Source: Verrucomicrobiota bacterium (GTDB taxonomy: Bacteria; Verrucomicrobiota; Kiritimatiellia; SS1-B-03-39; UBA6053). Taken from it: DNA of 37,252 nt. The notes beneath the pieces were generated by a model. That model saw only the letters and a list, made by a program, of their open reading frames with translations. It ran no database searches and was not told where the DNA came from. The DNA lies in assembly GCA_020831635.1 (NCBI GenBank), contig JAFIGC010000042.1, positions 1-37,252 of the forward strand, written 5' to 3'. Of the stretch, positions 2,005 to 29,282 are shown one piece after another. Numbering within the stretch: the stretch's first letter is position 1; every line of letters starts with the position of its first letter. The position numbers were made by a program, and so were the translations under genes.

Positions 2005-5000
2005 TTATTCCCGCCAGACCCGCAAATGAAGGAATAACTGATTTGCAAGGGGTTCTATCTCCACCACAACCGGGCCCCCGCCCTCCCCTGACCATGCCGG
2101 TGCTTCACCCCAGTCGAGCAGATTTTCGGTGGCCCACACTTCGTAGGTCAGGCGGGGGTCTTCGATACGGGTGATGCTGAGGCTCATGCCGTTGTCGCTG
2201 ATCTGTGGAACCAGTCGAAAAGCCTCTGCGGGGGTGTCGGCGGTACCTCCAAGCGCATAACGCAACAGGTTGGGCACTCCGTCGGTTTCGTCCGTCGCCC
2301 CGCCGCTGATCTCATTGGCGGAAGCCCAAACCGCATAAGGATCCTGCGGCGGCGAGGTGATGGTGCCCAAAACCTCCACAAGGTCAACCTGGGTGCGGTG
2401 CCAAGGATCGGTGGTGTTAGGACTGCGCGTATAAATGCGGAAAGTCACCGCCTGTTCGTCCGGATTCAAGTTGTTGAGATCGATCAATTGTTCCGCGAAG
2501 GCGTCCGCGTTGCCGGCGACAAACACCGCTCCGATGTTGGCGGAATAGTTGTCCAGACTGCTGCGGACGGAGATCTCCGCTTGTCGGTTGGCTGCATGGG
2601 CAATAAACGCCCCGGCGTTGTTCCATTGGGAACCCGAACGGGCGACGATGCGCAGGGTGTCCAAAGATTGGGCGCCCTCCAGCGTGAACTCGAAATAGGG
2701 ATTGCCGGATCCGCCGGCTTCCCATTGGAAAAGGGGGCTTTCGATCCCGGCGATTTGCGCGGCTCCGGCGATGTTGTGAGCGCCATCGGTGGCGATGAGG
2801 CGCGCGGGGCTTTCGTCATGATGGCGTATGAGGAAATCCGAGGCGGTGATCTCCGGGGCGACCGCTTCCGCCGTCGCCTGGCGCACGAACGTCCCGTCGC
2901 CGTGTTGCGTGCCGATGTCGGAAACATGTTCAAATGTATATCGCACCAACACGAAAGGATCCAACGGCCCCTCCACGTTCACAAATTCAAAGGCGCCGAG
3001 GTCGGGCCCGCTACCCTGCCGCTCCGTGCCGAGGGCATCCGCGGGCACTGCCGCGAACACCAGCCCGTGGTCGATGGCGGGACTGCTGGACTGCAAGGTG
3101 AAATCCAAATTTGCCGCGTTCACGAATTGCGGATCGGTGTTTGGCAGGTTATCCGCATCCACGCCATGCGCCGGGGCGTGGGGACTGTTGGCGATGTTGC
3201 GGGTGAAGTGCCAGTTGGCGGTGTTCGCGATGTTGTAGGCGCGACGGTCGGCGCGGGCGATGGCGATGTTGTTGTGGAAGTTGATGGATTCGTTTGTTTC
3301 GCCTCCGGGCGCGTCACTGCTGAGTTCGCCGGACCATTGGAGATCGGTGCTGGCGAGGTTGTGGTAGGCGGTGTTGTGGAGGATATCCACGTTGCGCCCG
3401 TTGTACACGTGGAAGGCGCGGCCACCGTTGTGGTAAGCGAGGTTGTTGGCGATGAGGATGCGGTCCTCCGTATAATTTTGGCAGTAGTCGATGATGACCC
3501 CGTTGCCGTCGGTGATGTAGCCCACCCATTTGAAGGCGACCATGTTGCGGTTGTTGTGTAGGATGTTGTTGCGGACCACCACGCCGTATCCGTTGGAGGG
3601 ATGAATGTTGGAATTGAGTTCCACAAAGGAAATGGCGCTGTTGCCGGCGTCGGAACGGTGGGTGCTGGAATGTACGGTGTTGCCCTCCACCAGAATCATG
3701 TTGCCGCCGCGGAAGCCGATGCCGTTGCCGCCGACCCGGTGCACGAGGTTGTTGCGGATGCGGATGTGATGGGGCTCGGTGCCATTGTGGGTGACGGTGA
3801 TGCCGCCGCCGAAGAAATGGCGATCTTCAGCCAAATCCTTTCGCGCCTGACTGTTTTCCGGTTCGTCAGCCAGCCATTCCGGGTCCGGCAGGCCAATGAC
3901 TTCCAGCCCGTCAATCTCGATGTATGAGACATTCCAAAGCTGGATCCCGTTCCAGGTGTCCACATGGAAACGAGGACGTTCGCCGGGATAGGCACGATAG
4001 GTGATGTACTGGCCTGGGGTGCCGGAGGTGGTGATGTCCCAGTTTTTGTATTCGTCGTTTCCCTCCGAGTGGTAGTCGCCCTCGCGAATGAGCACGGTGT
4101 CGCCGGGCTGTAGCGTGTGGATGGCGTGCTGGAAGGTCTGCCAGGCCTGCGCCTCGCTGAGCCCGCTGTTGCTGTCGTTGCCGTTCACGGCGTCCAGATA
4201 GTAGGTGTCCCCCGTTCCGCCGCCGGGGTTTTCAGGCTGGGCGGGATCATCGGATAGTGGCGGAGCCGCCTCAAAATGCGCGGTTACCGTCAGATCCTCT
4301 GTCACATAGGCGATGCTGAGCGGATTTTCGGTGGAGGAACCGCCGCCGGTCCAGGTCCAGTTGACAAACGCGTAATCCTCATCCGGCGTCGCGGTCACTT
4401 CTGTGGTCGCATCGCCCTGAGAAATGTTCTGATGCAGGTCGCCGGAAAGGCTTCCGCCATTGCCGGCGGTGAAGGTGACGGTGTGGGCCGGCGTAGGCTC
4501 GTCCATCTCCTCCACAATCAACGCCATCGCATTGACGACCGCCACCCAGTTACCGTCCTCGGCGGCACTGCTCAGGCGGAGGGTATATGTGTCGGAGCCG
4601 CTGGTGGTGTGGTTGACGTATTGGGTTTGGCCCGTGTCGGCATTGCTCAACAGGGAGGTCTCGTTGCTTTCTCCGGGATGCAGAACAAGATTGATATTCC
4701 GGTTCTCCCCGGTGCGGCGGATGACCATCTGAAAGGTGACATCCGCCTCCGGATCCAGTCCAGTGAAGGTGTAATCCCAATAGGCACCGGGCTCGTCAAA
4801 GCTTCCGGTTTCGCGCTGGGCCGCCTCGGAGGGCGTGAACCAGTCGAACGGATTGGCGGCAAAGTGCGACTCCAAGACCTGAGAACCGGTCTGCCGTCCC
4901 ATGTTTGTGGTCACGTTTGAGGTGAGACTGACGTGGATCCCCGCGTCGTTTCCGTCTTCGGTATCGCTCAGAAGAACATTGGAATGCTCCAGTTTGGGCG

Positions 5001-8000
5001 AGGCGGTGCCGAGCGTCTGCTGCAGGCGGAAGCTCTGCCACTGGCGGGTGCCGTCGGTGGTGTAGACGGTATCCCCGAAATTGAGCAGATAGGTGCGCAC
5101 CGGCGGGGGCGGCTCTTGAATGGTGATGCTGACGGAACTTGTCGCGGTCACGCCGCCGCTGCCCTGGGCGGACGCGGTGAGGGTATGGGTGCCGAGGGAC
5201 AGGGTACTCAGGGACAGGCTGGCTCCGGTGCCGAGTGCTCCGTCGATGGAGGAGGTCCAGACGACCTGGGAGGAGATGTCTCCGTCCTCGGGATCGGAGG
5301 CCTCGGCGGTCAGGAGAACCGGTTCACCCACCAGATGGGCGCTGCCGTTGGCCGGAGAAAGAATGGTGACACCGGGCAGATCGGGCAGGGCCTCGAGTTG
5401 CACATTGGTGGCAATACTGAGATTGTTGAGCACCCAATTGCCCCGGGTGGCGATGGCAAAGCCGTTGAAGGCCTCGGGACCGTCCGCGACCGTAAAGGTG
5501 CTGCTCACGGTGGCGACGCCGGACACGGTGGAGAAATTCCACGCGATCCCGTTGTCGTTGCCACTGCCGTTCCGGTTGCTGTCGGGGGTGTTGTAGACGG
5601 TCCGCAGCCGAATTTGGGTGGAGCTGGTCCGCTCCAGACGCAGGGTCACGGCTGTCAGCGCGTTCTGATTGAAGCAGCTCATGTTGTGCGCGTGATTTGC
5701 TCCGTTGAGGTTTTCAGCTCCGTCCGCGAAGGCCATCAGTCCCGCCGGTCCCGCGCCCTGACGGGCCAGGCTGTAGGGTCTGCTCCCGTTGTCACTGCGG
5801 CTGCCCGGCTGGTGAACGTAGCCCTGCCAGAGGTCGGTGACGGCCGTCTGGGCGTTTTCGGTCACATTGGGGCCGTGAAAAAAGCCGAAGCTGATGGCGC
5901 GTCCGGCATTGTTGTCGGTGTTGGAGCGCAGCGAAAAACTCAGTTCGATGTAATCGCCGACCTCCAGCAGGGGGACCTCCTGGAAGTTGGAGACCACCCC
6001 CTGAAACACGTCGCTTCCGGAACGGGTCATGGTGAAAGTCCCGCTGTTTTCGCTGACGGCTCCGCCGTGGATGACATAGAGCGGATTGATGGCGAAGGGG
6101 ACGGGTTCCGTCACCACAATCAGCGCGGGATTGGACACGGCCTCGCTTTGCATGTTGGACACCCGCGCGGTGTAGGCGCCGTTATCGGCCAGGCTGGCGC
6201 TTTCGATCGTGAAGGTGGCGGCGTTGGCTCCGGGAATGTCCTCGCCGTCTTTGCGCCATTGCACGTCCGGAGCCGGATACCCGGTGGCGGCGACGGTCAG
6301 GCTCACGGGCTGTCCGACGATGGCGCCGGTGGTCACGGGGTGAAGGGTGATGGCCACGTCCTCCGGCGATGTCAGCGTGGTTTCGGAGGCGATGTTGCTG
6401 GGATTGCTCTCGCCTTTGTCGTTCAGGGCGCTGACGTAATAATAAAAGGTGGTGGTTTCCGGCAGGTTGCTGTCGACGTATTCGGTGACATCCGCTTCGG
6501 TGGTGTGGATGAGGGACCAGGGGCCGCCGGGGGAGGCGGCACGGTAAATGAGATAACCGTCCTCGTCGGTGGCATTGTCGGTCCAGGTGAGTCCGATTTC
6601 CGAAGTGCTGACCGCCGAGGCCGCCAAACCGGTGGGAGCGGCGGCGGGCGGGTCGGTGACGATAAGCGCGGCGAAAACACTGGTGTCGCTGCCTTCGCTG
6701 TTGGTGACCACGGCATAGTAGTCTCCGGCATCGGCGGGGCCGATGTCTTCCAGGACCAGGGTGTCCGCCGTACTCAGCACCTCTCCCGATCCCGATTTGT
6801 ACCAGGCCACGGCCGGCTCCGGGAATCCGACGTACTGCACGCTGAATTCAACGGTGCGGGTGGCGGGCAGACTCCGCGACTGAGGCTGAACGTAAATCAT
6901 CGGCACGGTCGGGTTTTGCGCGGTGCTGACAATCTGAACCGCGTTGATGGCGGACCCCGGATTGTTTGCGGTCAAGCGGAATCCGGAGGCGCTGATGTCG
7001 CGAAAGATTAAATAATTCCCGAGTCGTTCGGCCACCGGGGCACTGGCGCTGGTGGCGGTGGATTCTTTGAACCCCACCCAGGTGTCGTAGTTGGGGTAGT
7101 CGCCCACGCCGTCTCCGCGCACAAGGGAGTTGTGGCCCCAAATGGACGGCAGCGGATTTTGCCCGTCGGGGGTCAAGACATATTCATTGGGAAGGGTGTC
7201 TTCGGCGCCGCCCTCATGGTGGTCGAAATACACATAGACATCATAGTTGGCGAAGGGGATGTCCTTAACGTCCACCACCGGACCCGCGGTGTCATCCCGC
7301 ACGCGCAGACCGCCATACATGAGCCGCCCGTTGGCGGTGTCGGGATTCACCAGCATGGAGCCGTCGGGGCTGTGATTCTGATGGGTCCGGCTGCGGTAGC
7401 GGGTCCAGGCGGCGGTCGTCGCGCCGTCACGGTCTTTCAGGTGATTTACGGTGTGATCCCAGGTTTGACCGAGGGTTCCCTGCGGCGCGTTGTTCCAGTT
7501 GGCCTGCATGAAGAAGGCCCCGGCCTGGTCAGATGCCGCCAGGGAGCCGTTCGATCCGTAGGTGCCGAGGAAATTGATGCCGATGGAGTCGCGCTGGATG
7601 GGCGAGGTGACATCCAGGAGGGCCGTTTCCGACACGGTCAGGTTTCCCAGGGTGTCATACGCGACCGCGCTGAGGAAGAAGGATCCGACCGGCAGGTTGC
7701 TCCAGTTGAAGGTGTACGGCATGGAGCTGTCTTCACCCAGATATGCGGATCCGATAAAGAACACCACCCGGTCGATGCCGTTCGGGGACGACGCATCGGC
7801 GGAGATTTCGAGGTTGCTGCCGACAATGGCCAGCATGCCGGTGGTCGGATAGGTGATTGACACCGCGGGTGGAGTCACACTGGCCGGATCGGTCCGCGAG
7901 AGGGCGGACGCGGGGATCAGGGCGGACGGGGAACTCAGGGTGCTCCATTCCACGTTCAGGAGGCCGTTGCCGTCCCGGTTGAACATCTCCACACGGATGC

Positions 8001-9870
8001 GGTGCCTGCCGGCGTTGAGGGGAATGTTGCCGGAGGCGGGGGATGCCTGACTTTGCAGGCCGTCATTGTTGACCACCCGTGTGTCACCGATGTAGAGGCT
8101 GGAACCGTCCCGCGAACGCAGGGTAAAGGTGTACACGTCATTGGCGGGAACCTCCAGATATCCCTCGTAAACCAAGCCGTAGTTGCTGTCCCGGTCGCGC
8201 GGGGCCACACTGAACGTATCAACGGCCCCTTGTTTTACGGGAAGTTGGCTGCCCCATTCGGGCAGTTGGTTATAGACCCCTTCATAATAGGTGTAGCTCA
8301 GCCCGGATACGGTTTGGGCGGGGTTTTCCGGGCTGCGGAAGGGCACATCGCCGACGTTCACCCACATTTGTGCCATGGCCAGCCCGCCCTTCATGTCGGA
8401 CACGGTCACGGAGACCAGATACACCCCGGGGGTGTTCCAGGTGACGGTTTGGGTGGGGCTGCTGACGAGGTTGTAGGTGTTGTTGCCGAAATCCCAGTCG
8501 AAGGCCAGCGCATCTCCGTCGGGATCGCCGGCGGTGACGGTGAGGGTGTAAGGAACGCCCGGGTCAACGCCGGTGAGCAGGGTCTGGGGAAAGGAAGCCG
8601 TCGGCGGCTGATTGTTGTTTATATCATTCTGATAATTGACCACCACGTCGATATACTCATGGTCGACCCCTCCGTGGGTCTCGCTGCCGCGGGCCAGGGC
8701 GGTGATGTGGACGCCTCCATACATGTGGGTGCCGTTGACGTTGGGGCCTTCGGAGAAGGTGCGGCCGATTTTGATGGCCGAGTCGATGCGGTCGTCGTCG
8801 AGGCGGGAATTCGGGGTGGTGTCGAGCAGGTGACTGCCGTTGCGTCCAAAGCCGGTGGCGTGGACCTGCACCGCGTTGCGGTCCCAGCTGGCGCGGGTGT
8901 GGAGTCCGTCCGGGGCATCGGTAAAGCGGAACCCGAGAATGTGACTTCGGTTCCATCGGTTCATTCCGTCCACGGGCAGATGGAGCCCGCGGGTGTTGGT
9001 TTCGGGGCGGCGCGATTCGCGGTTGGTGTGGGCAAAGAGCCGGTAGGTGCCGCTGGAGGTGACGGTCCGCATTTCATCGCGTCCGCGCTCCAGAAAATTG
9101 AGCTGATCTTTCATCTGGGCGTTGAAGAGGGTGCTGCCACCGCCCATGGTGTCGCCGCCGTCGCCGTATTCCACATGGGTGCCGCTGGCGTTGCGGGGAA
9201 TGCCGTTGTCGCCGATCCAGAAGTTGGCGTGGTACACGCCCCAGTTGTGTCCCAGCTCATGAATGGCCACGCCGGCATCCAGCCGGTCCCCGCTCCAGGA
9301 GAAGGCCGCGCCCACATAGGCCATGCCGGTGGAACTGATGAGCTTGGGATTTCCGAAGGCCATCACCCGGTCGAAACGCGCCGGGTCCTTTGCGCCGCCG
9401 TTCCACTCGCCGCCCTGGGCGCGGACCGCCGCATACGTGTGGTTCATCAGCATCCAGAAATTTCCGCGGTAGTACGCCACCGTTTCCGGAAGATCCAGGA
9501 CCTCTGTCACCACCAGCCGGTCAACGTCGAAACCGTTTCGCCGTTTGGGTCCGAACCAGGTCTGTTTGAAAGACGCGTTATAGTAGGCCTGCGAAAGATT
9601 ATCCATTTCCGCATTGAACTGCGCCATGGATTTCACGTTGGGTGTCTGACCATCCACCGGACGAATGTACACAAACAGGAGCGTTTTCGGACCCTTCTGA
9701 TGGGCGTCCACGCCGGTGTAGTGGTGATAGCGCTGCGTCGGCGGGATGGCCGAGGTGGGCGGGCTGTCCGGGTGAAAGGTTAGGACTTGCGCATACAACG
9801 TGATGCCAAACAGGGTCGGCAAAAAGGACGATAAAAGCAAATAACGGTGTCTCGAATTCATGGTATTCAT
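2005..9870 (-). CDS. Giant secreted metzincin-type metalloprotease with PKD/PA14/Ig/FN3 modules and C-terminal beta-helix
   Basis: 2621 residues, exported by an N-terminal signal (hydrophobic core YLLLSSFLPTLFGITLYAQ). A zinc protease domain follows: HELGHNWGVYH at residues 204-214 is the metzincin HExxHxxGxxH signature, and EYGDGGDTMG downstream fits the Met-turn of M11/gametolysin-like enzymes. Approximate order after that: PKD 424-500, PA14-like 517-657, Ig-like 667-756, an unknown 'NF(L/G)G' beta domain 762-990, Ig 993-1070, FN3 1074-1167, Ig 1170-1254, a jelly-roll-like domain 1257-1494, Ig 1499-1587, a second 'NFG' domain 1592-1790, an InlB-like repeat 1797-1869, a right-handed beta-helix 1886-2290 opening YYLDAVNGNDSNSG, a galactose-binding-like domain 2294-2497, and the shared C-terminal domain 2510-2621 ending LFLHLRVWRE. 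It is last in a minus-strand run from 12707. ATG 9870 has no clear Shine-Dalgarno; a second ATG lies three codons in. It probably cuts or binds glycoprotein or polysaccharide outside the cell. Confidence 0.85.
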   Translation of the reverse strand: MNTMNSRHRYLLLSSFLPTLFGITLYAQVLTFHPDSPPTSAIPPTQRYHHYTGVDAHQKGPKTLLFVYIRPVDGQTPNVKSMAQFNAEMDNLSQAYYNASFKQTWFGPKRRNGFDVDRLVVTEVLDLPETVAYYRGNFWMLMNHTYAAVRAQGGEWNGGAKDPARFDRVMAFGNPKLISSTGMAYVGAAFSWSGDRLDAGVAIHELGHNWGVYHANFWIGDNGIPRNASGTHVEYGDGGDTMGGGSTLFNAQMKDQLNFLERGRDEMRTVTSSGTYRLFAHTNRESRRPETNTRGLHLPVDGMNRWNRSHILGFRFTDAPDGLHTRASWDRNAVQVHATGFGRNGSHLLDTTPNSRLDDDRIDSAIKIGRTFSEGPNVNGTHMYGGVHITALARGSETHGGVDHEYIDVVVNYQNDINNNQPPTASFPQTLLTGVDPGVPYTLTVTAGDPDGDALAFDWDFGNNTYNLVSSPTQTVTWNTPGVYLVSVTVSDMKGGLAMAQMWVNVGDVPFRSPENPAQTVSGLSYTYYEGVYNQLPEWGSQLPVKQGAVDTFSVAPRDRDSNYGLVYEGYLEVPANDVYTFTLRSRDGSSLYIGDTRVVNNDGLQSQASPASGNIPLNAGRHRIRVEMFNRDGNGLLNVEWSTLSSPSALIPASALSRTDPASVTPPAVSITYPTTGMLAIVGSNLEISADASSPNGIDRVVFFIGSAYLGEDSSMPYTFNWSNLPVGSFFLSAVAYDTLGNLTVSETALLDVTSPIQRDSIGINFLGTYGSNGSLAASDQAGAFFMQANWNNAPQGTLGQTWDHTVNHLKDRDGATTAAWTRYRSRTHQNHSPDGSMLVNPDTANGRLMYGGLRVRDDTAGPVVDVKDIPFANYDVYVYFDHHEGGAEDTLPNEYVLTPDGQNPLPSIWGHNSLVRGDGVGDYPNYDTWVGFKESTATSASAPVAERLGNYLIFRDISASGFRLTANNPGSAINAVQIVSTAQNPTVPMIYVQPQSRSLPATRTVEFSVQYVGFPEPAVAWYKSGSGEVLSTADTLVLEDIGPADAGDYYAVVTNSEGSDTSVFAALIVTDPPAAAPTGLAASAVSTSEIGLTWTDNATDEDGYLIYRAASPGGPWSLIHTTEADVTEYVDSNLPETTTFYYYVSALNDKGESNPSNIASETTLTSPEDVAITLHPVTTGAIVGQPVSLTVAATGYPAPDVQWRKDGEDIPGANAATFTIESASLADNGAYTARVSNMQSEAVSNPALIVVTEPVPFAINPLYVIHGGAVSENSGTFTMTRSGSDVFQGVVSNFQEVPLLEVGDYIELSFSLRSNTDNNAGRAISFGFFHGPNVTENAQTAVTDLWQGYVHQPGSRSDNGSRPYSLARQGAGPAGLMAFADGAENLNGANHAHNMSCFNQNALTAVTLRLERTSSTQIRLRTVYNTPDSNRNGSGNDNGIAWNFSTVSGVATVSSTFTVADGPEAFNGFAIATRGNWVLNNLSIATNVQLEALPDLPGVTILSPANGSAHLVGEPVLLTAEASDPEDGDISSQVVWTSSIDGALGTGASLSLSTLSLGTHTLTASAQGSGGVTATSSVSITIQEPPPPVRTYLLNFGDTVYTTDGTRQWQSFRLQQTLGTASPKLEHSNVLLSDTEDGNDAGIHVSLTSNVTTNMGRQTGSQVLESHFAANPFDWFTPSEAAQRETGSFDEPGAYWDYTFTGLDPEADVTFQMVIRRTGENRNINLVLHPGESNETSLLSNADTGQTQYVNHTTSGSDTYTLRLSSAAEDGNWVAVVNAMALIVEEMDEPTPAHTVTFTAGNGGSLSGDLHQNISQGDATTEVTATPDEDYAFVNWTWTGGGSSTENPLSIAYVTEDLTVTAHFEAAPPLSDDPAQPENPGGGTGDTYYLDAVNGNDSNSGLSEAQAWQTFQHAIHTLQPGDTVLIREGDYHSEGNDEYKNWDITTSGTPGQYITYRAYPGERPRFHVDTWNGIQLWNVSYIEIDGLEVIGLPDPEWLADEPENSQARKDLAEDRHFFGGGITVTHNGTEPHHIRIRNNLVHRVGGNGIGFRGGNMILVEGNTVHSSTHRSDAGNSAISFVELNSNIHPSNGYGVVVRNNILHNNRNMVAFKWVGYITDGNGVIIDYCQNYTEDRILIANNLAYHNGGRAFHVYNGRNVDILHNTAYHNLASTDLQWSGELSSDAPGGETNESINFHNNIAIARADRRAYNIANTANWHFTRNIANSPHAPAHGVDADNLPNTDPQFVNAANLDFTLQSSSPAIDHGLVFAAVPADALGTERQGSGPDLGAFEFVNVEGPLDPFVLVRYTFEHVSDIGTQHGDGTFVRQATAEAVAPEITASDFLIRHHDESPARLIATDGAHNIAGAAQIAGIESPLFQWEAGGSGNPYFEFTLEGAQSLDTLRIVARSGSQWNNAGAFIAHAANRQAEISVRSSLDNYSANIGAVFVAGNADAFAEQLIDLNNLNPDEQAVTFRIYTRSPNTTDPWHRTQVDLVEVLGTITSPPQDPYAVWASANEISGGATDETDGVPNLLRYALGGTADTPAEAFRLVPQISDNGMSLSITRIEDPRLTYEVWATENLLDWGEAPAWSGEGGGPVVVEIEPLANQLFLHLRVWRE

Positions 9871-9887: not shown

Positions 9888-10118
9888 TTATCTTGTTTTG
9901 GTACTTTCGCGTAAATAGAAGGCCGGCCCCTTGGGAGTTGTCCGGTACAAAGGAGCGGTTCTGATTTCCACGCGGGTGATGCGTCCGTTTTGCCATTCGC
10001 CCCCGACCCGCAGCAGCGACCATGCCTTGACGGTGCCGGAGACGGTGTAGGTGCCGGACGGGAAACAACAGACCATGGCGTACGCGAATACAACTGGAAT
10101 CAGCATCAGATATTTCAT
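9888..10118 (-). CDS. Small secreted protein (76 aa), possibly a remnant of a glycosidase C-terminal domain
   Basis: A 76-residue product with a hydrophobic N-terminus (YLMLIPVVFAYAMVCC) that could be a signal peptide or lipoprotein signal; the usual +1 cysteine context is poor. The rest contains VKAWSLLRVGGEWQNGRI, which resembles the C-terminal beta domain of GH95-type alpha-fucosidases (pattern VKGLRARGGFEV..W..GK). That resemblance is from memory and weak. It sits 17 bases upstream of the 2621-aa gene and about 40 bases downstream of the frameshifted pectate-lyase-like gene, all on the same strand, so it is likely in the same transcript. It may be a short true gene or the stitched-together ends of a deleted glycosidase. 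Confidence 0.45.
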   Translation of the reverse strand: MKYLMLIPVVFAYAMVCCFPSGTYTVSGTVKAWSLLRVGGEWQNGRITRVEIRTAPLYRTTPKGPAFYLRESTKTR

Positions 10119-10459
10119 GTTTTCAGGTTACCCTTTTGCCGCCATGATGTTGAGGCTTTAAGATTTCAATCTGTTGAACTCTATAAACCGCTTTGGAGGG
10201 GCGGCGTTCCAGCCGCCAACGCCCTGGAGTATGAGAGGTCGGGTGGAGGCATGTTCGAACTGATAGCCGACCTGGCTGTATTCATCGTGGAGAAGTTCGA
10301 TGATCACGGTGCGGGCTCCGGCGTCAATCGCGCGCTGCACATCGGCGCTCACATTCGGAGTCGCATCCAGGATCACCGATTCTGAGGCCGGTTCGTAGTC
10401 GGGGATCTGCGGGCGTTTGACCGGCATATTCGGAATCCCGCCTCCGTGAAAGAGGGTGC

Positions 10460-10467
10460 GGGGGGGG
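10460..10467. repeat. G8 homopolymer at a frameshift point
   Basis: Eight consecutive G on the plus strand (C on the coding strand). The coding frame changes exactly here; a ninth base would restore the pectate-lyase-like frame (SGAPPRTLFHGGG...). Confidence 0.8.
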
Positions 10468-11233
10468 CGCCACTGACATAGCCGGCCACATGCGGACCCG
10501 CCACGGTCTGCTCCCCGTCCTGAATGGCCTTTTCGAATCCGGTCACCCGCAGGTCCCCCACGAGAAGCACAATGTTGTCGTGGACGGTCACCGCTGTTTC
10601 CAAAGGTGTATTGGCGCGGGTGTTCACGTTGGTCAAGAGCACGTAGGCGCGTTTCTTCTTGTCCAGCAAAGGGACGCGTCCCTCGAAATCCAGTTCACTG
10701 ATAAAGAGGGACTGCCATATTGAGGGCCATCCCCACGGCGCTGGCCTTTTGCGGATCGGAGGAGCGGATACGCAGATTGAAAAGTCCGCCGAACTTGTTG
10801 GCGTGGTAATCCAGCGCGATGGCACCGGGATTGCCCGCGCCGATGTCGATGGTGAGATCGCAAATGCACTGCAGAAAGTTCTGAGCGTAGTGAATGCGTC
10901 TCCTGGTGTTCAACCACACCCGCGGCTGGTCCAGGTTCCCGAAGTCCGGGCTGTTGTCCGCGAGCCGGAGGATGGTTCGGTCCACACCGTCCCCACGGAT
11001 GAATTTCTTTTTGTCGCCCCAGACAATGGGCTCGCGAATCAGGTAGGTGCCGGGCGGGATGTAAATAAAGCGCGCCTCGCCAAAGCGGCCGGGATTGTCT
11101 TTGCCGGATTCAAAGACCTCTTTGAAGGCGGCGGTGTCGTCGGTGACCCCGTCCCCCGCAGCCCCCGCGTCCGTTTTCATGTTCACGATACCGGAGCTTG
11201 CGAAATTCAGGCATGCCAGGAGCAGGCACTGCT

Positions 11234-11253
11234 CCTCCCCGGTGCCGGGGAGG
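11234..11253. repeat. Perfect GC-rich palindrome inside the signal-peptide region
   Basis: CCTCCCCGG, two bases, then CCGGGGAGG, a perfect 9-bp stem. A second small inverted repeat, GAGCA/TGCTC, lies just to its left (about 11219-11233). Together they encode the odd residues PLPGTGEEQC, which interrupt an otherwise ordinary signal peptide. This looks like a small palindromic insertion of about 36 bases that kept the reading frame. Confidence 0.55.
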
Positions 11254-11321
11254 GGCAATGAGCAGAAAAGGATGATTTTGAGCCGTTTCACGAGACGGAT
11301 CATGATCATCCCGAAGACACC

Positions 11322-12707
11322 TTACCGCCGGGATTTCCGGCGGGCGGTGTAGAGAGCGGAAAACCCGAAAAGCCCCACCAGAATGAGGGTGGAGGGTTCG
11401 GGAATGACGGTCCAGGTGGCGCCTTCGTTGAATTGGGCGCCAAAGTCGAAGCCGTTGATGGTGCCGCTGGCAGCTGTGTAATCGCCGGCCGCCAGATCAA
11501 AGCCGTCAATGGTCCAGCCGGACAGAATGCGATTAAAGCCGCCGGTATTGATCACGGTTTCCGCGCTGTTGAGCGTGAAGTGAATGTTGTCGGCAAAAGC
11601 ATTGTCGACGTTGATGTCTAAAACCCCCAAATTGTCGATCGTGACATCACCGGTGCCGAGGGCTCCGGCTTTGCTGAGCGCCAGGGTTGCGCCGGTCATG
11701 TCGACCAGGGTTCCGCCGCTGTAGGTGTTGGCGGCGGAGCCGGCCATGGTATAGGTTTCGGTCGAGGAAGTCCCGTCAATCGTCAGCCAGAGACGGTTGT
11801 TGGCGGCCGTGGAGCCCGTGCCATCGCTGATGGTGCTTTGAATCGCATACGACGAACTGTTGCGGTTGTGCAGGTTGACCACCCCGTGCATTTCGATGTC
11901 GAGTCCAAAGCTGCCTCTGGCATTGAGATGGATGCGCTGGCGTTCGGCGAGTTGATCGCTGTTTCCCGCGATGATTTTCACGCCGGAGTCCGCGGTCGTC
12001 GGCACCGCCCAACTTCCACTGAAGTTGATGACTTCGTCCTGGGCATGGCCACCGGTGTGGGTCGATCCGCGCACATCCAGCGTCAGATCTTTGATCGGAT
12101 TGGCATTGAACCCGGATTGACCGATGTTGACCCGGGTGTTTCCCTCAAGTGTCAGCGTATGTCCGCCGCCGTTGAAGGCGTTGGCGGCATTCCCGGCCCG
12201 GAATTGAATGATGCCGACATTGCCGCCATTTTGGCGGACGAGAAGGTTGTTTTCCAACACAAATTGATCCGCTTTGGTCGGTTCAAATACAAAGCCCCGG
12301 CCATTTTGCAGCTCTGATCCCAAATCGAACACAGAGGTGTTGCCGTTGTTGTTGATGCGGAAGCTTCCGAGATCGGGTAAATCCGTGCCGGTGACCCGTC
12401 CGAAAAAATAGCTTCGGTTGTCGGTGATGTTCATATTTCCGAAGCGAATGGTGCTGGCGGCGGCGGTGTCGGCCACGATCCGGGTTTCGTTGCTGTTCGT
12501 GGTGGAAAATGTGGCGGTGGTTCCGTTGGCATTGGGGATGCCGCCAACAGACCAGTTTGCCGCGTCGTTCCAGCTGAATTGTCCCGGAGAGGAGGCCGGG
12601 TTCCACTCCGATTGTGCGGAGACAACGGATACAGATCCAAAAAGGATCAGGGCGGCGGCGATGAACGGGATCGTGTTCCCGGTTAGGTATTTTTTCTTAG
12701 TGCTCAT
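11322..12707 (-). CDS. PEP-CTERM sorting-domain protein with beta-strand repeats
   Basis: 461 residues. It has an N-terminal signal (IPFIAAALILFGSVSVVSAQ), a long Gly/Asn/Thr-rich body opening W.....FSWNDAANWSVGG, like the autotransporter-associated beta-strand repeat proteins common in Verrucomicrobiota, and a classic PEP-CTERM tail: IPEPSTLILVGLFG, a hydrophobic helix, then the basic ARRKSRR end. In this class an exosortase removes the tail and the protein is retained at or released from the cell surface; no exosortase gene is in the window. ATG 12707 follows AGGAA with a 7-base gap, so the start is well supported. It is the first gene after a promoter at 12781-12809 and a palindromic operator, and leads a four-gene minus-strand run. 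It may help present the neighbouring enzymes or bind the polymer; that part is inference. Confidence 0.9.
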   Translation of the reverse strand: MSTKKKYLTGNTIPFIAAALILFGSVSVVSAQSEWNPASSPGQFSWNDAANWSVGGIPNANGTTATFSTTNSNETRIVADTAAASTIRFGNMNITDNRSYFFGRVTGTDLPDLGSFRINNNGNTSVFDLGSELQNGRGFVFEPTKADQFVLENNLLVRQNGGNVGIIQFRAGNAANAFNGGGHTLTLEGNTRVNIGQSGFNANPIKDLTLDVRGSTHTGGHAQDEVINFSGSWAVPTTADSGVKIIAGNSDQLAERQRIHLNARGSFGLDIEMHGVVNLHNRNSSSYAIQSTISDGTGSTAANNRLWLTIDGTSSTETYTMAGSAANTYSGGTLVDMTGATLALSKAGALGTGDVTIDNLGVLDINVDNAFADNIHFTLNSAETVINTGGFNRILSGWTIDGFDLAAGDYTAASGTINGFDFGAQFNEGATWTVIPEPSTLILVGLFGFSALYTARRKSRR

Positions 12708-16661: not shown

Positions 16662-19600
16662 TCATTCAAACACCCGCACGCGGAGGAAGAGCGGAGTGGT
16701 TTCGGGGAGAACGGGAATTTCGCGGACCCACCAGCCATTTTCGCCGGGGGTGGAGGCTCCGGGCGCGGGTTGCCAGTCGGCGGGGGCCAGCGAGGGGCTT
16801 TGTTCGACGGTGTAGCTGAGGTCGCCGGCGTCTCGGCGGTAGCGGAGCACCGGCGGAACGCCGTTTTGGAGGTAGGGGAGCTGCGCGGTGCCCGCGTGGA
16901 GCGGGTGGCCGCCAAAGGCGCGTTCGAGGCGGTTGGGGATGCCGTCTCCGTCCGGGTCGGCGAGCTGGCCGGGAGTGAAGACGCTTGCGGCCCAGACGGC
17001 GTAGGCGTCCGGCGCCTGAGCCTCGTTGCCGTGAAGGTAGTATTCGAGGTCATACTCGGAGGCCACGCTCCAGGTGCCGAGGGTGCTCCCTCTTCCGCTG
17101 AGTCCGCTGCCGTTGTTGGCGCTGCGGCTGATCATAATCCCGTGCGGATTCTTGCCGCCACCCTGATCCTGGCGGGTATGGCGGTGGGCGTTGAAGTTGA
17201 TGAAACTGTCATTGCCGGCCGGTTCGTCGAGGCCCAGGAGAATGAGATAGGTGTGGCCGGAGCGGAGAGTCAATTCCTCCCCGAAATGAAAGGTGACAAA
17301 CTGTCCGTCCACCGCCGTGGCGGCGGGCCAGACCACCGGTTCCCTGGAAAGGATCAGGGCCTCCGTGTTTGCCGGGGCGGCCGCGTTGGCGTCGGGCAGT
17401 TGCCAGACATCCACAAACACCCGCATGCCTTCGTGGGAGGCCGGGGAGCTGATCACCCGCAGGGTGACGGCGCTGACGTGGAGGTCCGGGCCCTCCGGGA
17501 TGGTGATGCGCTGGCCTTTGTGGTCGTTTTTGTCATGGGGGGCCACCATGCGGATGCCGCCGGGGTACTGTCCGACCCAGGCGCCGGCGGTGTCGGCCCA
17601 GGCCATGACGATGCCGCTGTCCGGCGCGGTGGCCGCGATCGCCAATCCGCTGTCGGGAATCACGGGAATGTCGATGGCGATGGCGCTGTCCGGTGCGATG
17701 ACGTTGGGTTCGGAGGCGAAATCGGTGACGTTGTTGACGGTGAGACTGTAGCTTGTGCCCTGGGAGAACGGATCTGTGTCGATCTGCACGCTGGAAGGCG
17801 AAACCGGGGTGACCGCGTGAATGGCGACCGCAGGCAGGATTTGGTAGTTGGCCGGATCCAGAGCGGTGTCGGGATGAACGGGTTCGCTGTAGGTGAGGAG
17901 AATGCCGCCGGCGACGGATCCTGCCGCCGACACGAGGGTGGGCGGGGTCTCGTCTTCCGGCGAAGTGGTGATGACATCCACCCTGGCCTGGTCCCAGCCG
18001 GATCTGCCGTCATGGATCTGATAATAAAAGGCGTCGGTGCCCAGGTGGTCTGGATCCGGCGTGTACACGGCCAGCCCGTTTTCGATTCGAACCCGCCCGT
18101 GGGCGGGGACGGTGTAACCGATCAATCGAAGGGTGTCGCCATCGGCATCGGTGTCGTTTGCGAGAACGGGAATGCCCACGGAGGTTCCCTGGGCCACGGT
18201 GGCGGAGTCGCCAACCGCAACGGGCGGGTTGGGTGATGTCACGGCGGGATAGGCGGTGTGGAGAAGCCCGGCGGACTCGCGGGGGGTGTCCAGGGTGATT
18301 CCGCCACGGGTTTCACGGACAAAGGTTTGAAAATCGGGTGTGCCGAAATTCCGGATGGTGGTTCCGGAGAAACTGGCGGCGGAATCAACCACATGGAAAA
18401 TCGGATCGTTTTTTTGCACGTGGGTGTTGGCCAGAATGTAGGCCCCCAGCAGTTCGACCCTGCTGTTGTTGACGGCCTTGATTACGGTGCCGGCGCGTTC
18501 GGTTTTCAGTCCCAGTACCCAAAGGTCGGCGTTGTCCGCGAGAACGCGGGCCTCGTGTTCGGGTGAGGACTGGGTGTCGGTTTCGACATTGAGCTGCCTG
18601 GCCCAGACGCGCTGGTTGCGGAAGGTCACCGGCGCCCCGAAGTTGACATCCTCAAGATACAGATCGCCGGGGGAGCCGACCGGGACATAGCGAATATCCA
18701 GAAGAGCGGACAACACCACGGGGCGGTCGCCCCCGTGCTCGATCACGACCCCGCTGGCGAGATCCGCCTGAAAGCGTTCGAAAATCACAGGGTCGCTTCC
18801 GCCGCTGTTGACGACAAAACGTCCGGATCCTTGTATCCTGGCCTCACAGCCGATGATTCGCCGGACGGTGGGGGGGACGGTGACGGTGCCTTCGAGGATC
18901 CAGGAACCGTTTGGGAGGTATATGGTGGAGGCTCCCGAGTTCATGGCGGCCTGGAGCGCGGCGGTGTCGTCGTGCGGATCGTTTGCGGTTCCGCCATGCT
19001 GGTGAGGACCCTGCCATGCGGAAAGAGGATCCCATGGGATTGACGGGGTGTCTCGAATCTCCAATCCGAGAGAGCGGTCTCCGTGGTCCGCAAAGGCGGA
19101 CTGGGCGGAGCCGTGGGAGAGAAATTCGGCCCCGTAGGGTCCGGGGACACCCCCGGTGTTTCCGCGGTTTTTGTCGTCGTGCTCCAGGGTCGCCTGATAT
19201 CCGCTGGAGCGGATGTTCCGGAAGTATCCGGTTTTGTCGCTGAAGATCGCGGGGCGGGTGGATGCGGAACCTGTTCCTTCCATGTGCGCGTCAATGAGAG
19301 TCAGGAATGCCTGGGTGTCGCGCTGGGTGTGGGCCACGGTCCGCTCGCCGCGGCTGTGGAGCCCCCGAATAAACAGAGCCTGGTTTCGGACCCAAATCCC
19401 GGTGACATTCTGCTCGCGGAGCCGAATGTGTTCGAGGGTTTGGCTGACGACGGTGTTGGCGGCGTGGATACCGATATCGAACCCGATCACCTCGACCCCG
19501 TGAATGAGGAGGGGACCGTTTTCACCCATGGCGAGTTCGAGCCCGTGGCGCCCGGCGCGGTCCGAGGATTCGATACGGACATTGCGCAGGGTGCCCTGAT

Positions 19601-22600
19601 TGTTGGACACAAAGGCGACGCCGTCAAGGTTCGCGCTGTTGCCCGGGGCGATGCGCACGGTGAGATCGCGGATGCCGTTTCGGAAATTCTGTGCGGCCCC
19701 GCCGCCGGTGAGCAGCACGGGTCCGGCGGTGACGGCGGGATTGTGGAAGAGCAGAACGGTGCTGTCTTTCCCCTCGCCCTGCAGGATGGTCCGTTTGCGG
19801 ACATCGGGTTCGCCCGGTGTCTCCGGCCAGGTGAGGGGCTGAGAGATGTTGTACACGCCGGCGGGCAGGTAAATGATCCGGTTTCCGTTTGGATACGCGT
19901 CCAGTGCGGCCTGAATGGCGGATGTGTCGTCGTTGCCGTCGTTCGGGACGGCATTGTAGGGCGGCTGGGTGACATCAATCACCCCGGAGTCGGGCGGGAA
20001 CCGGGTTCCCACGCCGGGCACAACCGGTGGCGGGCCGGGGTCGAGCTGTGTGTCGCTATCGATCACACTCTGAATTTCCTCCAGACTCAGCACCGTGTTG
20101 TGGAGACGGACTTCATCGATGCGGCCCCGGAAAGGTTTGGCATTTCCGGCATCGCGCTCTGCGCCAAGAATAAGAGGCGAGATGGAACTGCCCAGGGTAA
20201 AGACCCGGTTGCCGGTATAGGCAAGGGCTCCGTCGTAATAGGCGCGGCCGGACGCGCCGTCATACGTGAAAGCGAAGTGCATCCATTCTCCGGTGACACC
20301 GGGGCGGGGAAATTGAAACCATGCCCCGTTTCCGTTGTCGTAAAAGGTGACGCGAAGGTCGTTGCCTGTGACCGAGATATTGATGAATCCGGGTTTATTG
20401 AGAATGAAGTCCGCCCAGGAATCGGCTTTGAGCCACATGGACACCGAGAAGGTGTTGTCGGTGGGGGCGAGGTAGGGGTTGTTGGGAATCACCGCGTAGT
20501 TGTTGACGGTGCCGCCGCCGACCTGATAGCGGGTCATGAGGGAATGCCCGGTGCCTGCGGGCGTGTCCGTGGACCAGCCGTCGGACCTTGCGGTGGTTCC
20601 GGTGAGATTTTGGCCGGTGGTGTCGGCCAACAGGGTTCCCTGGCCTTCATCAAAGTGCCAGTGGGCCAGAAGGTCGGGAAGCGCGCCGGATGCGGTGGAC
20701 ACGGTGACGATGACCTCCTGATGAACGGTCTGTTCCATATCGTCGGCCGCCAGTCGGAGCACATAGGTGCCGGTCTTGGGGAAGGTGATGGTGGGGGTGG
20801 CGCTGTTGAGCGGCACAAAGGAGGGACGGCCCGGGCCGGATTTGATATCCCAGAACAGGGAGAGATCCGCGGCGGGGGCGTCGGAGCTGACGCCGGACGC
20901 CGGGTCATAGCTGAAAAGCGGGAGCGTGAGTTCCGTATCCGCGCCCGGATCAATCTGCGGGGCGGCGTGGGTGGGATCGGGCGCGTTCCTGCGCTGGCGC
21001 AACAGCCATTCCAGATGCGCGGGATCGGAAAAGGTCGGGGTCCATGCATCGTGGCCGACTCCGGGGAATTCGGTGTAACGAACGCGTCCTCCGGCATCGA
21101 GCAGGGCGGTGACCGCGTTGCGGCTTCCGGATACCGGGACGATGTTGTCCTGGTCTCCGTGGGTCAGCCAAACAGGGGTGTTTCCGGTCACGCCGGTGGC
21201 AAGCTGGGGGGCGGGCGCGCCGCCGCAAACCACCAGGGCGCCGGCCCAAAGATCGGGGCGGCGGGTGAGCGCGTCCATGCTGCCGTATCCGCCCATGGAG
21301 ACACCGGTCACCAGCACCCGGTCCGGGTCTATACCCTCATAGGTGGCAATGACCTGGTCAACGATGGCGAGCACGGCGGTCATCTGCGGCGTGACGGCGA
21401 CGTTGTTCTGGTCATAGGTGCCGCTGCCGAACCCGGTGTTGACCCACTGCTGTCCGACGGGACACCAGGGGTGGAGAATAAAGTGCGGCTGGTAGCTCTG
21501 GACCGCCTCCGTCACCAGCGCAACGGTGGGATACCCTCCGGTGAGCGGATCCGGATTTTCGTTGGTGCGGCTGCCTGCACCGTGGAGGCTGAGGATCAAC
21601 GGATACGACAGGGCCGGGTCGTAATCTGCGGGAATCCAGAGTTGATAATACAGCGTGTTGCCGTTGCCGTCGTCGTACTGGAAGGGATGGAAGGCCCCTT
21701 CACCGCCGGCGGAGTCCAGGGTTTGTGCGGAGGCGACCTGGGTATATTCGGAGGAGCCCCCGGCATTGACACCCCGCACGCGGTAAAAAACGGTGGTGCC
21801 GGACGCGAGCCCCGTATGGGTGTATCCGGTGACACTGGCGGCGGTGGTGTGCAGCAGGGACCAGCCGCTTTCCCCGTCGGACGAGGTTTGAATTTCAAAC
21901 CCGGTTTCGTCCTGGCTGTTGTCGGTCCAGGCCAGCTGAATGTTTCCGTTGGGCAGGGCGACGGCACTGAGGCTGCCCGGGGCTTCGGGGGGATCCGGCA
22001 TATAAATGGTGAGCTGGCCCTGAACCGACCCTTCATAGAACTCGTGATCCACGGTGGCGGTCCATTGATATTGGCCGACATTCACGGGTGCGGAACCGCT
22101 GCTCCAGACGAAGGTCAGCGGCAGTCCAACCGGGTTGGTGCCCACGCTGACGGTCTTGGGCGTGCCAGTGTATGGCTGGGTGTCATCCGGCGGATGAAAC
22201 AGGTCCGCGAGCGCCTTGAGCACGGTCAATTCGAGGTCCATGTCCACGGTGTTGTACGCCGAGGGGTTGGACGGAACGAAGCGGACCTGCACGGGGAGGC
22301 TGCCGGGTGACTCGGGGGTGAAAGAGGGATTGAGAACGGTGAAGGTTCCGGAGACAGATGCTCCGGTGTTCGGATCGAGCATGAGCCCCCCCTGCGGGAC
22401 GGCATCCCCGAGGGACATGCCCCAGCGGATGGACGTCAATGCGGGCGTCGTGTCCAAGACCGGGGTGCTCAGCGTCACCTGGCTTTCCACCACGGACACG
22501 GCAACCGAGCTGGCGGAGGTCAGGCCGTCGTTGTCGGTGACGGTGAGCGACAGGGTGTAGTTGCCCGGTGCGGTGTAGGTGTGGGTCCGCGCGGCGGGGC

Positions 22601-25600
22601 TGTCGGTGGTGACCAAGGCAGAGCCGTCGCCGAAATTCCAGACATACTGGACGATGTTTCCGTCCGGGTCATAGGAGTCCAGCGCGTCCGCGGTGACGGT
22701 CAGCGGGGCGGATCCGCCGGTGTTTTGGGCGTTGATGACCGCAGCGGGGCCCTGGGCTCCGGCGGGTCCTTCGGTGACATGCACGGTGAGATGCAGGGTG
22801 GAGGCGGCGTTCGGGTTCTCGGTGTTGGCGCGGAGGGTGACGGTGGCCGTGTGGGTGCCCACCGGCAGATGTGCGGTATCAATTTCCAGCGGCACGGTGA
22901 TCCTTTCGCCGGCGGGCAGGTTGCCGCCGCGGACTCCGGGGCGCAGCCACTCCGGCTCGCCCGTGTCCACCAAGGCTATGGCGGCGCCGCTGCCTCCCCA
23001 GTACATCCATGCGGTATGGTGGGGACCGGCCGCGGCATAATGCGGCGTGGTCGTGCCAAACGTCACCCCGAACCCGCCCTCACCACTGCCGGTGCGGGGA
23101 TTGGCTTTGTAGATTTGCCGCGGCGATGTGTTCGACCCGCGGAATGCGATCAGCTTGTCGTTGACCAGCGCGATGCCGTAACGTCCGTTGGTGCTGCTGT
23201 TGGTTCCTTCTGTTTGCGGCAGATTGAACACCCCAAGTTCAGCTCCACTCACCGGATCGAGAATAAAGATCCGCCGGTCGGTATGTTGATTGCCTTTGCG
23301 CACATACCAGAGCCCGTTGCCCGCAGCGAGGGAGCTTACGGGAAGGGCCGTTTGAGAGCTGTCATCCGGATCCCTTTGCACGGGAATCCGCCGCAGGACC
23401 TGCGCTTCCGCGCCAGTGATGTCAAATTCCACAATCTCCGCCGTGTTTGCGGTGGCGAGCAGGATATGACCGCTGTCCGGATCCCAGGTCATGGCCTGAA
23501 CTTGCTGTTGGTTGACCTGGGTGGAAATATCCAACTGGCGCAGGAGAGCGCCCGTAACGGCATCCCGCTCGGTCAGGTAGATATACTCCGTAATGTTGGT
23601 GTCTTGGTTGCGGAGGATATACACCTGCCAGAGCCGCTCCTGCCGGTAGTCGTATCCGGCAAATAACATCGATATGAAGAATGAACCCGCCGGTCTGTAG
23701 ATATCGGTGGGGATGAGCGCGAGCGAACGCAGGATGTGTCCGGCCACCGAATCGCCGGGCTGATCGCTCTGCACCCGCAGTCCCCAGCGGGCCCTCGCGT
23801 TCATGCCGGTTTCGGATACAAAGGTGTCCACGGTCAGGTTTTGTCCCTGCTGGATCGAGACGCTGAGGGTTCCGGGCTGGAGGCTGGTGCGGGCGTAGGC
23901 GGAACGGAGATATATGATGAGATTCTCCTGCTGGACCGGGACCGGGTACTCCACGGCGTCCCCGAGCAAATGGGTCTGGCTGGCGATCAGGCTGATCGAC
24001 CCGGTGATGCCTGAAAGCCTCTCAATGGAAAACGTCCCGTCCGGCCCCGCCTGGAAGGTATCCTCAAAGAGTCCCGTCGTGCTGAGAACGGCGTCTGGAA
24101 CCGGCAAGCCGGTCTCCTCGTGCAGGACGGTGCCGGAGAGACTCAATCTGTGGATCTCCATATCCACGTTTTCGATTACTTGCCCGGCCTGCGTCGGCTC
24201 CACCGCCTGCAGGGGAGTGTGCCGTCCGGGTGAAACCTCCACCCACAGCTCGTGTTTGCCCAGTCCGATTTCGACCTCATAGGTGCCGTCGGCCCGGGTG
24301 TACACTTTGGTCGGAGTCCAGCCGCCAATCCAGACGGCGGTATTTGCGAGAGGTTCGCCGCCCAGGGTCACACGCCCGCGCACGGTGGCGGCGGGATAAA
24401 TATGGATGTCCACCACATTGGTGTGGGTCAGACCGTCGTTGTCGGTCACCGTCAGAAAGAGTTCGTAGGCGCCCGGCTCATCAAAGTGCAATTCCATGAC
24501 CGGGCCGGTGCCAAGCACGTCATCGCCCATCCGCCACTCGTAGCCGACGATCTGCCCGTCCTCATCCCAGCTTCGGGAGCCGTCGACTTCAAACACCGTG
24601 TTGGGCGTGCCGCTGACCCGGTTGCTGCGGATGTAGGCGTAAGGTTTCTTGAGGGTGGGGTTGGCGCCCACGGTGACGACCCAGGCGGCACTGTTGCGCG
24701 CGCCCTGATCGTCGGTCACCGTCACCGTGGCCACAAACTGGCCTTCCCGCGTGTAGGTGTGGCTTCGGGACGTGCCGCCGCTGGCGGTGGCGCCGTCGCC
24801 GAAATCCCATTCGTAGGAGACAATATTTCCATCCGGGTCGCTGGACCCGGAGGCGTTGAAGGTCAATGCCAGCGGGGCGTTCCCCTGTATCGTATTGTTA
24901 CTGACCGTCAGGTCCGCCAGGGGGGGCTGGTTGTTCAGCGCGAGGCCTTGGGGGTTATAGATCAGCCGCAGCCGCCGGTTGTCACTGCTGGACACCATGG
25001 TGAACTTGTGGCCATCCGGACCACCCGCCGTCACGCCCGCCGCCACAGAAACAGCACCCGAGCCGCGGAGAATATCAAATGCGTCCCCCACCTGCGGAGT
25101 GAATCCATCGGCCAGCGTCACCTCAATGCTGCTGCCATCCTCCATTCGGGGCCCCTGGATGCCCCAGGTGCCGCGCAGTTGATCGTGGCGGTGGATGTCG
25201 GCAATGCCGATGGCCAGGGTCGCTCCACTTTGCAACACAGTCTGGTTTTGTCGCGCCGGGCCGAATCTTTCCGGTCCGAGCGGCGTGAGGCGGGCCCCCG
25301 TGCTGACGAACGAGGCGGCTTTGTTATAGGGCGGCATGTAGACATCGCCGCCGCTGAGGGTCAGGGCCCCCGCATAGTTCAGTTCGGCAATGCCGGATAA
25401 ATCCAGGACACCCCCGGACACCGTGAGCGAGGCGGTTTCGCCGGAGACCTGGCTGAGACCCGCCAGCTTTGCCACCCCTTCGCTTAGGGTCAGATCATGG
25501 GCAAGTTGAACGTGGAAATCCTTCGGTGGAACAAATCCGTAAGGAGGAAAGGATGCGGAAGGATCATTTGCATTTTCGCGGTTGTTAAGGGTGCCGAAAT

Positions 25601-26540: not shown

Positions 26541-26573
26541 AAGGCGGGGTCTTTCGAAGAAGGTTGAATAAGG

Positions 26574-26585
26574 TATACCGATAAA
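26574..26585 (-). promoter_or_regulatory. Palindromic operator, site 3 (giant-GH31-hydrolase operon)
   Basis: Reads TTTATCGGTATA on the coding strand and overlaps the -10 box at 26584-26589. It is about 34 bases upstream of the start codon. Apart from the promoter, the 146 bases between the giant gene and the GH63-like gene hold only a loose TCCCGA/TCGGGA inverted repeat without a T-run. Confidence 0.7.
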
Positions 26586-26612
26586 CCTAACCAAATAAAT
26601 GATTTTTGTTAA
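26584..26612 (-). promoter_or_regulatory. Promoter of the giant-GH31-hydrolase operon
   Basis: On the coding strand there is TTAACA (26607-26612), a 17-base spacer, and TAGGTT (26584-26589), in an AT-rich stretch. The -10 box continues directly into operator site 3. Confidence 0.5.
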
Positions 26613-26686
26613 GAAAAATATTTTTGCAAAGCGTGAAGGTCCCGATTTTACAGGGCAACAATCCATCTGTCGGGATCAAAAGAATC

Positions 26687-28204: not shown

Positions 28205-29221
28205 ATGAAACAAAAAACAACCCTACAAGACATTGCCGACGCCTGCGGGGTCACCCGGATGACCGTTTCCAGCGCGCTGCGGGGCACCGGAAGGATGCGG
28301 GAGGATCTCCGGGAGAAAATCGTGGAGCAGGCGGCCCTTCTCGGGTACCGTCCCAACAAAGCCGCGAAAATTATCGGCACCGGCTGGTTCGACACCGTTA
28401 CGCTTCTCAACAGTGTGAATATTGAGCGCAGCAATCTCTTTCACGATATCCTTTTAGGCCTCAGCTTGGAACTGCAGGAAAAAGCCTGTCATTTGCATGT
28501 CGCCACCTTTACAGACGCAGACCTCAGCGGAGAAGGGCTTTTGCCTCTGTTTATGCGGGAGTCAAATTCAGACGGACTGATTATCAACTACACCCACGAT
28601 GTGCCCAAAGCGTTTCTGGATCAGTTGGCGCTCTGCAATATTCCCTATGTATGGTTTAATAACAAACGACGGGTTGACGCCGTCTATGCCGACGATCTTC
28701 AAGGCGGAAAGGAAAGCGTGCGCGTGCTGACGGAACTGGGACACAAACGCATCCTTTATTTGGACCATCCGATTTCTCATCATTACAGTGTCACTGATCG
28801 CCGCAAGGGCTATGTGCGGGAAATGGAGGCCCGATGCCTTAAGCCCGAGGTCAATTCAACCTTGATCGAACTGAGCGACAGAGAACAGTATCTGGCCTGC
28901 CGTAAGATTCTGGAAAAGAAAAACCGGCCCACGGCGGTGATCACCTACAGCTCATCCAAGGGGGTGGACATGATGCTCGTGGCGGCGCTTGCCCTGGGCA
29001 TGGAAATTCCCCGTGATCTCTCACTCCTCTGCTTCGGGGATGTCTATCCCACGCTGCTCGGACGCCCGATCAGCACCATCATTCGTCCGACGTTTATCAT
29101 GGGGCAGGAGGCCGCGCGCATGTTTCTCGCTAAACGCTCGGACCCCGAAAAAAACATTCCCAGCGTCAAAGTTCCCCTGCGTCCCCTTTGCGACGCCACC
29201 CTGGCCCCGCCGTCGGCCTGA
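28205..29221 (+). CDS. LacI-family transcriptional regulator
   Basis: 338 residues, the usual length. The helix-turn-helix is textbook LacI: TTLQDIADACGVTRMTVSSAL at residues 5-25, followed by a third helix and GYRPNKAAK. The rest is a periplasmic-binding-protein-like sensor domain with a sugar-binding fold (SDGLIINYTHDV, GHKRILYLDHP, PTAVITYSSSKGVDMM, LSLLCFGD). The hinge segment reads NKAAKIIG; most members have N..AR.L, whose leucine inserts at the central CG of the operator, so this one may use an isoleucine. It sits at the centre of the locus, divergent from the GH63-like gene, with a palindrome in its own promoter. The probable role is to repress the five transcription units carrying TTTAYCGRTAWW operators until a breakdown sugar binds. 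The inducer cannot be told from the sequence. Confidence 0.95.
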   Translation: MKQKTTLQDIADACGVTRMTVSSALRGTGRMREDLREKIVEQAALLGYRPNKAAKIIGTGWFDTVTLLNSVNIERSNLFHDILLGLSLELQEKACHLHVATFTDADLSGEGLLPLFMRESNSDGLIINYTHDVPKAFLDQLALCNIPYVWFNNKRRVDAVYADDLQGGKESVRVLTELGHKRILYLDHPISHHYSVTDRRKGYVREMEARCLKPEVNSTLIELSDREQYLACRKILEKKNRPTAVITYSSSKGVDMMLVAALALGMEIPRDLSLLCFGDVYPTLLGRPISTIIRPTFIMGQEAARMFLAKRSDPEKNIPSVKVPLRPLCDATLAPPSA

Positions 29222-29243
29222 CGGCCCCCGTAAAAAGCCTTTT

Positions 29244-29272
29244 TTGATATTTTTTTGTTTTCACGATAGATT
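29244..29272 (+). promoter_or_regulatory. Promoter of the beta-helix gene
   Basis: TTGATA (29244-29249), a 17-base spacer, and TAGATT (29267-29272). The -10 box runs into operator site 5, and transcription would start about 14 bases before the ATG. Confidence 0.55.
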
Positions 29273-29282
29273 TATCGATATA
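29271..29282 (+). promoter_or_regulatory. Palindromic operator, site 5 (beta-helix gene)
   Basis: TTTATCGATATA, overlapping the -10 box and ending 10 bases before the ATG at 29293. It is identical to site 4. Confidence 0.7.

Follow-up and report, generated by a model that had tools for sequence, protein, structure and literature searches.

Three proteins encoded in the 37,252-nucleotide stretch of Verrucomicrobiota DNA analysed here (the window, which is the entire contig C98 of a 6.0 Mb assembly, 96.5% complete) end in one and the same tail domain of 110-130 residues, hereafter the CTD, and a profile count indicates that dozens of proteins of this genome do so as well. Given where the domain sits and on which proteins, we lean towards reading it as a signal for outer-membrane export or surface retention of Sec-exported proteins, which would be used in the mode of the C-terminal domain of the T9SS while belonging to a separate family.

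The first carrier, a 2621-aa protein read from the reverse strand (2005-9870), leads in its translation and domain scan from a signal peptide and a metalloprotease-like start (HELGHNWG) through PKD, PA14, Big_7, Ig, FN3, an InlB-type repeat and a beta-helix to a CTD of about 113 aa (2008-2346, reverse strand; profile E 1.4e-26 and 2.8e-22), which runs to the last residue, the profile matches ending 0 or 1 residue from the stop. The translation of 2005-2340 on this strand reads PYAVWASANEISGG...LFLHLRVWRE*, and its terminal strand LFLHLRV (2017-2037, reverse strand), for which sequence, column conservation and a strand of the structural model speak, lies three residues before the stop codon. 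The second carrier, also on the reverse strand, lies in an open frame of 3334 aa (16662-26666), where a start at MMFRST, with a signal peptide, gives a protein of 3292 aa (16662-26540) that contains PKD repeats, an esterase/PHB-depolymerase-like domain, LamG, pectate-lyase-like regions, Big_9 and, at its end, the CTD (16665-17012, reverse strand; profile E 1.0e-24). Because the window is a whole contig, the third, right-edge protein (36779-37252, reverse strand) is truncated at the contig end, so that its N-terminus lies beyond it and only the C-terminal 157 aa are present, with the CTD at 36782-37120 (reverse strand; profile E 5.8e-28 and 1.6e-20). The first and third copies are 60% identical; that of carrier 2 is a distant one (36% identity, E 6e-6 in a single-sequence search), yet, judged by sequence comparison, it is certainly a member of the family, as a profile built with it among its rows matches it at E 6.5e-33. 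The original prediction of a common tail on these three proteins is therefore confirmed, and its description of the carriers as large secreted proteins is correct for the first two, the right-edge protein being without its N-terminus in this assembly. That the carriers are unrelated is true of their enzyme parts, which differ, while carriers 1 and 2 do have generic PKD/FN3 repeats in common; the proposed ending LFLxxRVxxE, in turn, is a local form of the broader F(L/F/Y)RLxV, after which the stop follows within 0-9 residues.

Two other parts of the window are worth recording. At about 10000-11309 (reverse strand) there is a pectate-lyase/rhamnogalacturonase-like frame that ends at 10695, with similar coding sequence apparently resuming in a different frame, so that either the gene is broken or the sequence contains an error. 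At 28205-36101 (forward strand) a LacI regulator, a beta-helix protein, a rhamnogalacturonase/epimerase-like and a GHL6/fucosidase-like protein stand in a row, likely forming a plant or algal polysaccharide utilisation locus.

The CTD is laid out as a Y..W segment, an EF-hand-like loop (DPDGDGxxNLxEYAxGxDP) and a predicted Ig/FN3-like beta-sandwich with FxR and LxYxVxxSxDLxxW. In an alignment of 95 copies, the Trp of the N-terminal part is conserved in 98%, the loop reads D-P-D-x-D-G-x-x-N (Asn 88%) and is followed by L, E/R, Y/F, A, G and Pro (85%), then by F/Y-x-R; the stretch L-x-Y-x-V-x-x-S-x-D-L-x-x-W has its Trp in 100% of copies, with Pro (66%) after it, and the final strand F-x-R-L-x-V has F in 81%, R in 83% and neighbours that are hydrophobic in 94-100%. 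The full EF-hand ligand pattern is present in 29 of the 95, the loop being degenerate in the remainder; in the window it is canonical in carrier 2 (DPDGDGIPNRLE, 16923-16958, reverse strand) and degenerate in carriers 1 and 3. AlphaFold2 models built from 5 and 6 sequences had a mean pLDDT of 64 and 73, and in the better one the loop and a short helix precede six strands, the last of which reaches the C-terminus (this strand spans residues 123-130 of 131 in one model and 107-114 of 115 in another). The fold is thus predicted to be an Ig/FN3-like beta-sandwich, and comparison of the models with known structures returned common sandwiches of this type, none of them significant (Z about 6 or less), several of these weak matches being accessory domains of glycoside hydrolases.

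Such features bring up a second explanation, which we regard as possible if on the unlikely side, namely that the CTD is a generic accessory domain, an FN3-like sandwich stabilised by calcium whose ligand would be a polysaccharide, exopolymer of the cell itself or a mineral, and that its use as a terminal cap is incidental. The canonical loops, the two near-invariant Trp residues and the fold matches just mentioned are compatible with this, as is the fact that polysaccharide is the substrate of many carriers. The FN3/Ig-like accessory domains of glycoside hydrolases do belong to the same predicted fold class; the CTD, however, differs from them in position and copy number and matches none of their sequence families, nor any of the CBM families in Pfam. 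The original prediction had considered that the domain might turn out to be an already described carbohydrate-binding domain, a result that Pfam and NCBIfam did not give, as none of their models covers the CTD beyond its EF-like loop. Within this loop, in the N-terminal third, the CTD does share D-x-D-x-D-G-x-x-N-x-x-E with the TSP3 repeat (PF18884), other EF-hand-like loops and dockerins, and single members match TSP3_bac weakly (E 0.006); in contrast to TSP3 repeats and dockerins, the CTD has a single loop, which is degenerate in two of every three copies and precedes the predicted beta-sandwich. Over the same stretch, single members match the Amuc_1099 family (E 7e-4), a kinship that we rejected because this weak match involves the EF-hand-like loop only. 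Several partial matches to the loop were also seen in a giant 4111-aa frame (G000:C95), where they probably represent TSP3-type repeats. A search of PDB sequences with the 95-row profile gave two chance-level matches, and no PDB sequence contains the CTD. No description of the domain was found in the literature covered, which lay mostly outside subscription journals; studies of Kiritimatiellales and of the outer membrane of Akkermansia name PEP-CTERM or signal peptides, but not the CTD (PMC4960237, PMC7356697, PMC10880615).

The extent of the family was followed with profiles built successively from 8 (A1), 22 (A2) and 95 rows (A5). Searching with a 3-row alignment found only two relatives, in a PVC-group MAG and in a Verrucomicrobia MAG. 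Beyond the 8 sequences of its own alignment, profile A1 matched another 15 at E<1e-3, and the domain is therefore far beyond chance. In this genome there were 28 matches with A1 (E<=1), 35 with A2 (E<=1e-3) and 49 with A5 (E<=0.01), part of the latter covering the EF-like loop alone. When 38 relatives were added, the CTD was present in 35 of the 39 genomes, in up to 37 copies. Among 241 genomes sampled evenly across the phylum, with about 17 candidates at most scored in each, at least 168 had a match at E<=1e-3 and at least 105 had a strong one (best E<1e-12), the counts per genome being lower bounds and the absences soft. The family reaches genus g57 (many genomes, 2.2-3.3 Mb), which looks Akkermansia-like to us and belongs to another class than the window bacterium, itself perhaps one of the Kiritimatiellia; there the CTD is found on a sulfatase with PA14/BACON and on a GH18 protein with LamG/BACON. 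Plasmids and phages (tblastn) and viral contigs (scan) gave no CTD match. The nearest named relative of the window CTD is L039 (5242-6291, forward strand), in which the upstream part of the frame is not secreted-looking, a frameshift or misassembly in that MAG being probable.

Position and copy number are where the CTD sets itself apart. Among 132 non-redundant copies with the downstream DNA read, which were picked by match strength and not randomly, 129 were terminal (125 of them ending no more than 10 residues from the stop) and three internal, and never were there two in one protein; mid-protein copies as frequent as terminal ones, which the original prediction had named as evidence against a sorting role, were thus not obtained. 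The internal copies are followed by 172 (L112, in G016), 836 (L081, 2913-7022, forward strand) and 2173 residues. The last of these, in a reverse frame of L010 (G000:C75), is one of the copies most closely related to the window's CTD, and with Ig and other domains in the ~2170 residues after it, the protein looks like a carrier 1-like end fused to another large protein. A near-constant tail position, once per protein, is what one might expect if the domain addressed its carriers to export or to attachment at the surface. An Ig-like accessory domain at the terminus could be positioned similarly, and three internal copies do exist; the PKD, FN3, Ig, PA14, LamG and BACON domains of the very same carriers, however, are internal and often repeated, whereas the CTD is terminal in nearly all copies and never repeated, and it is not obvious what its conserved last strand, right at the stop codon, would contribute to binding. 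Compared with a generic accessory domain, an export or surface-retention signal is, in our view, the somewhat likelier reading.

Carriers of this genome that have a complete N-terminus start with a Sec signal peptide, recognised by eye from its charge and hydrophobic stretch. After removal of the CTD, 29 carriers of this genome fell into 15 groups (BLASTP at 1e-5), the largest of which is held together partly by common Ig/PKD repeats, and their architectures include sulfatases, GH115_C, BNR repeats, CEMIP/G8, LamG, PA14, beta-helix, esterase and metalloprotease domains. Carrier 1 shares 68% identity with its paralogue in L088 over 1496 N-terminal residues and 30% within the CTD, and the corresponding values for L086 are 48% outside the CTD and 25% within it; close paralogues being far more divergent in this domain than elsewhere, a CTD is therefore kept while its sequence drifts or is exchanged. 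The carriers are also long, with a median open frame of 1215 aa compared to about 310 aa for the PEP-CTERM proteins listed in this genome, as would suit a domain that acts like a chaperone or a folding cap, either shielding very large multi-domain proteins or flagging finished translation for quality control. Carriers of only about 325-560 aa bear the CTD too, however, and we know of no precedent for a family of this kind, which makes such a function very unlikely.

Last in its protein, single and promiscuous on Sec-exported carriers, the CTD resembles the T9SS CTD (TIGR04183/PF18962, type A), which is a terminal Ig-like sandwich, a fold class that is predicted for the CTD too, on many unrelated Sec-exported proteins, with a last strand conserved at the very C-terminus, as here, and with its signal in the last two strands (PMC4804311). 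With the first model, Foldseek did return a T9SS CTD structure (PDB 5hfs), as a weak match (rank 26, E 0.46). The likeness is one of mode of use and not of membership, because the T9SS models miss the CTD: PF18962, TIGR04183 and TIGR04131 gave no match at E<=1 among 22 members searched with Pfam and NCBIfam, and PF18962 had 0 matches in this genome while the control genome was positive. Compared to its T9SS counterpart, the CTD is longer and has an N-terminal Trp segment and the EF-hand-like loop. The T9SS is described from Bacteroidota (PMC10202324), and SprA was matched in 0 of our 39 genomes with a search that gave no match in control genomes either. GspK (PF03934) was considered as a partner and rejected, as it had no match in the CTD-bearing, apparently Akkermansia-like genus; its profile is moreover unspecific, because it matches in Bacillus subtilis and Lactococcus, both without type II secretion.

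PEP-CTERM tails, stretches of about 24 residues made of a PEP motif, a membrane helix and a basic cluster, are also C-terminal sorting signals, paired with exosortase (TIGR02595, PF09721) and found by the dozens per genome in the same organisms. There are about 124 PEP-CTERM matches in this genome, together with two exosortases, and both kinds of signal occur as neighbours within the window, where a 461-aa protein without a Pfam match (11322-12707, reverse strand) ends in WTVIPEPSTLILVGLFGFSALYTARRKSRR, a classic PEP-CTERM tail (VIPEPSTLILVGLFGFSALYTARRKSRR). Exosortase was found in 104 of 105 genomes with a strong CTD compared to 76 of 136 others, which could mean that the CTD is an exosortase substrate tag, serving in globular form in place of the PEP-CTERM tail, even though this overlap is confounded by shared descent. 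We consider such a tag highly improbable. The CTD, predicted to be a folded domain, has no PEP motif, membrane helix or basic tail, and the PEP-CTERM models had no match among 22 CTD members, in agreement with the original prediction that the tail was neither PEP-CTERM nor a recognised T9SS one. PEP-CTERM and CTD counts, moreover, are correlated with rho 0.42 over all 39 genomes, where both rise with genome size, and with rho 0.01 in the 28 genomes outside the window's family (f1). Lastly, one complete, single-contig genome of genus g57 (G136) has three CTD matches (best E 4.7e-28), with one fully read carrier ending RRFLRLKVTRE; neither the Pfam profile nor tblastn with the protein of a congener detected an exosortase in it, while the gene was found, as a control, in the congener. 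As this genome has strong CTDs without an exosortase, the CTD does not need one, which speaks against strict dependence. Most g57 congeners of G136 have an exosortase.

The original prediction had proposed to see whether the domain co-occurs with one export or sortase-like gene, and such a link could not be established, as G136 is without exosortase and GspK does not track the CTD. Its broader proposal, a sorting or anchoring module, finds backing in the tail position and the many secreted carriers and none in partner co-occurrence, and it is from the former that we infer this role. If the CTD is an export or surface-retention signal, a carrier would cross the inner membrane via Sec and then fold in the periplasm, where a translocation or attachment machine of the outer membrane may recognise the beta-sandwich, and above all its last strand, so that the carrier would cross this membrane or be held on its outside; in the copies that keep the ligands, the EF-hand-like loop might stabilise the fold with calcium.

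More tentatively, and with slightly less than even confidence, we propose that the Verrucomicrobiota have an unrecognised pathway of outer-membrane export or surface anchoring, independent of exosortase and T9SS, whose substrates bear the CTD as their mark and would include the sulfatase and GH18 of genus g57. The papers we found say little about how these bacteria export large polysaccharide-degrading enzymes, and where they name a C-terminal signal, it is PEP-CTERM. One uncatalogued tail on dozens of secreted proteins per genome would predict which of them travel together, and could serve as bait for the machine, in a test that is feasible in cultivable members. Should the CTD turn out to be a module for binding, a family that occurs across the phylum and is missing from Pfam and NCBIfam would still merit a model of its own.
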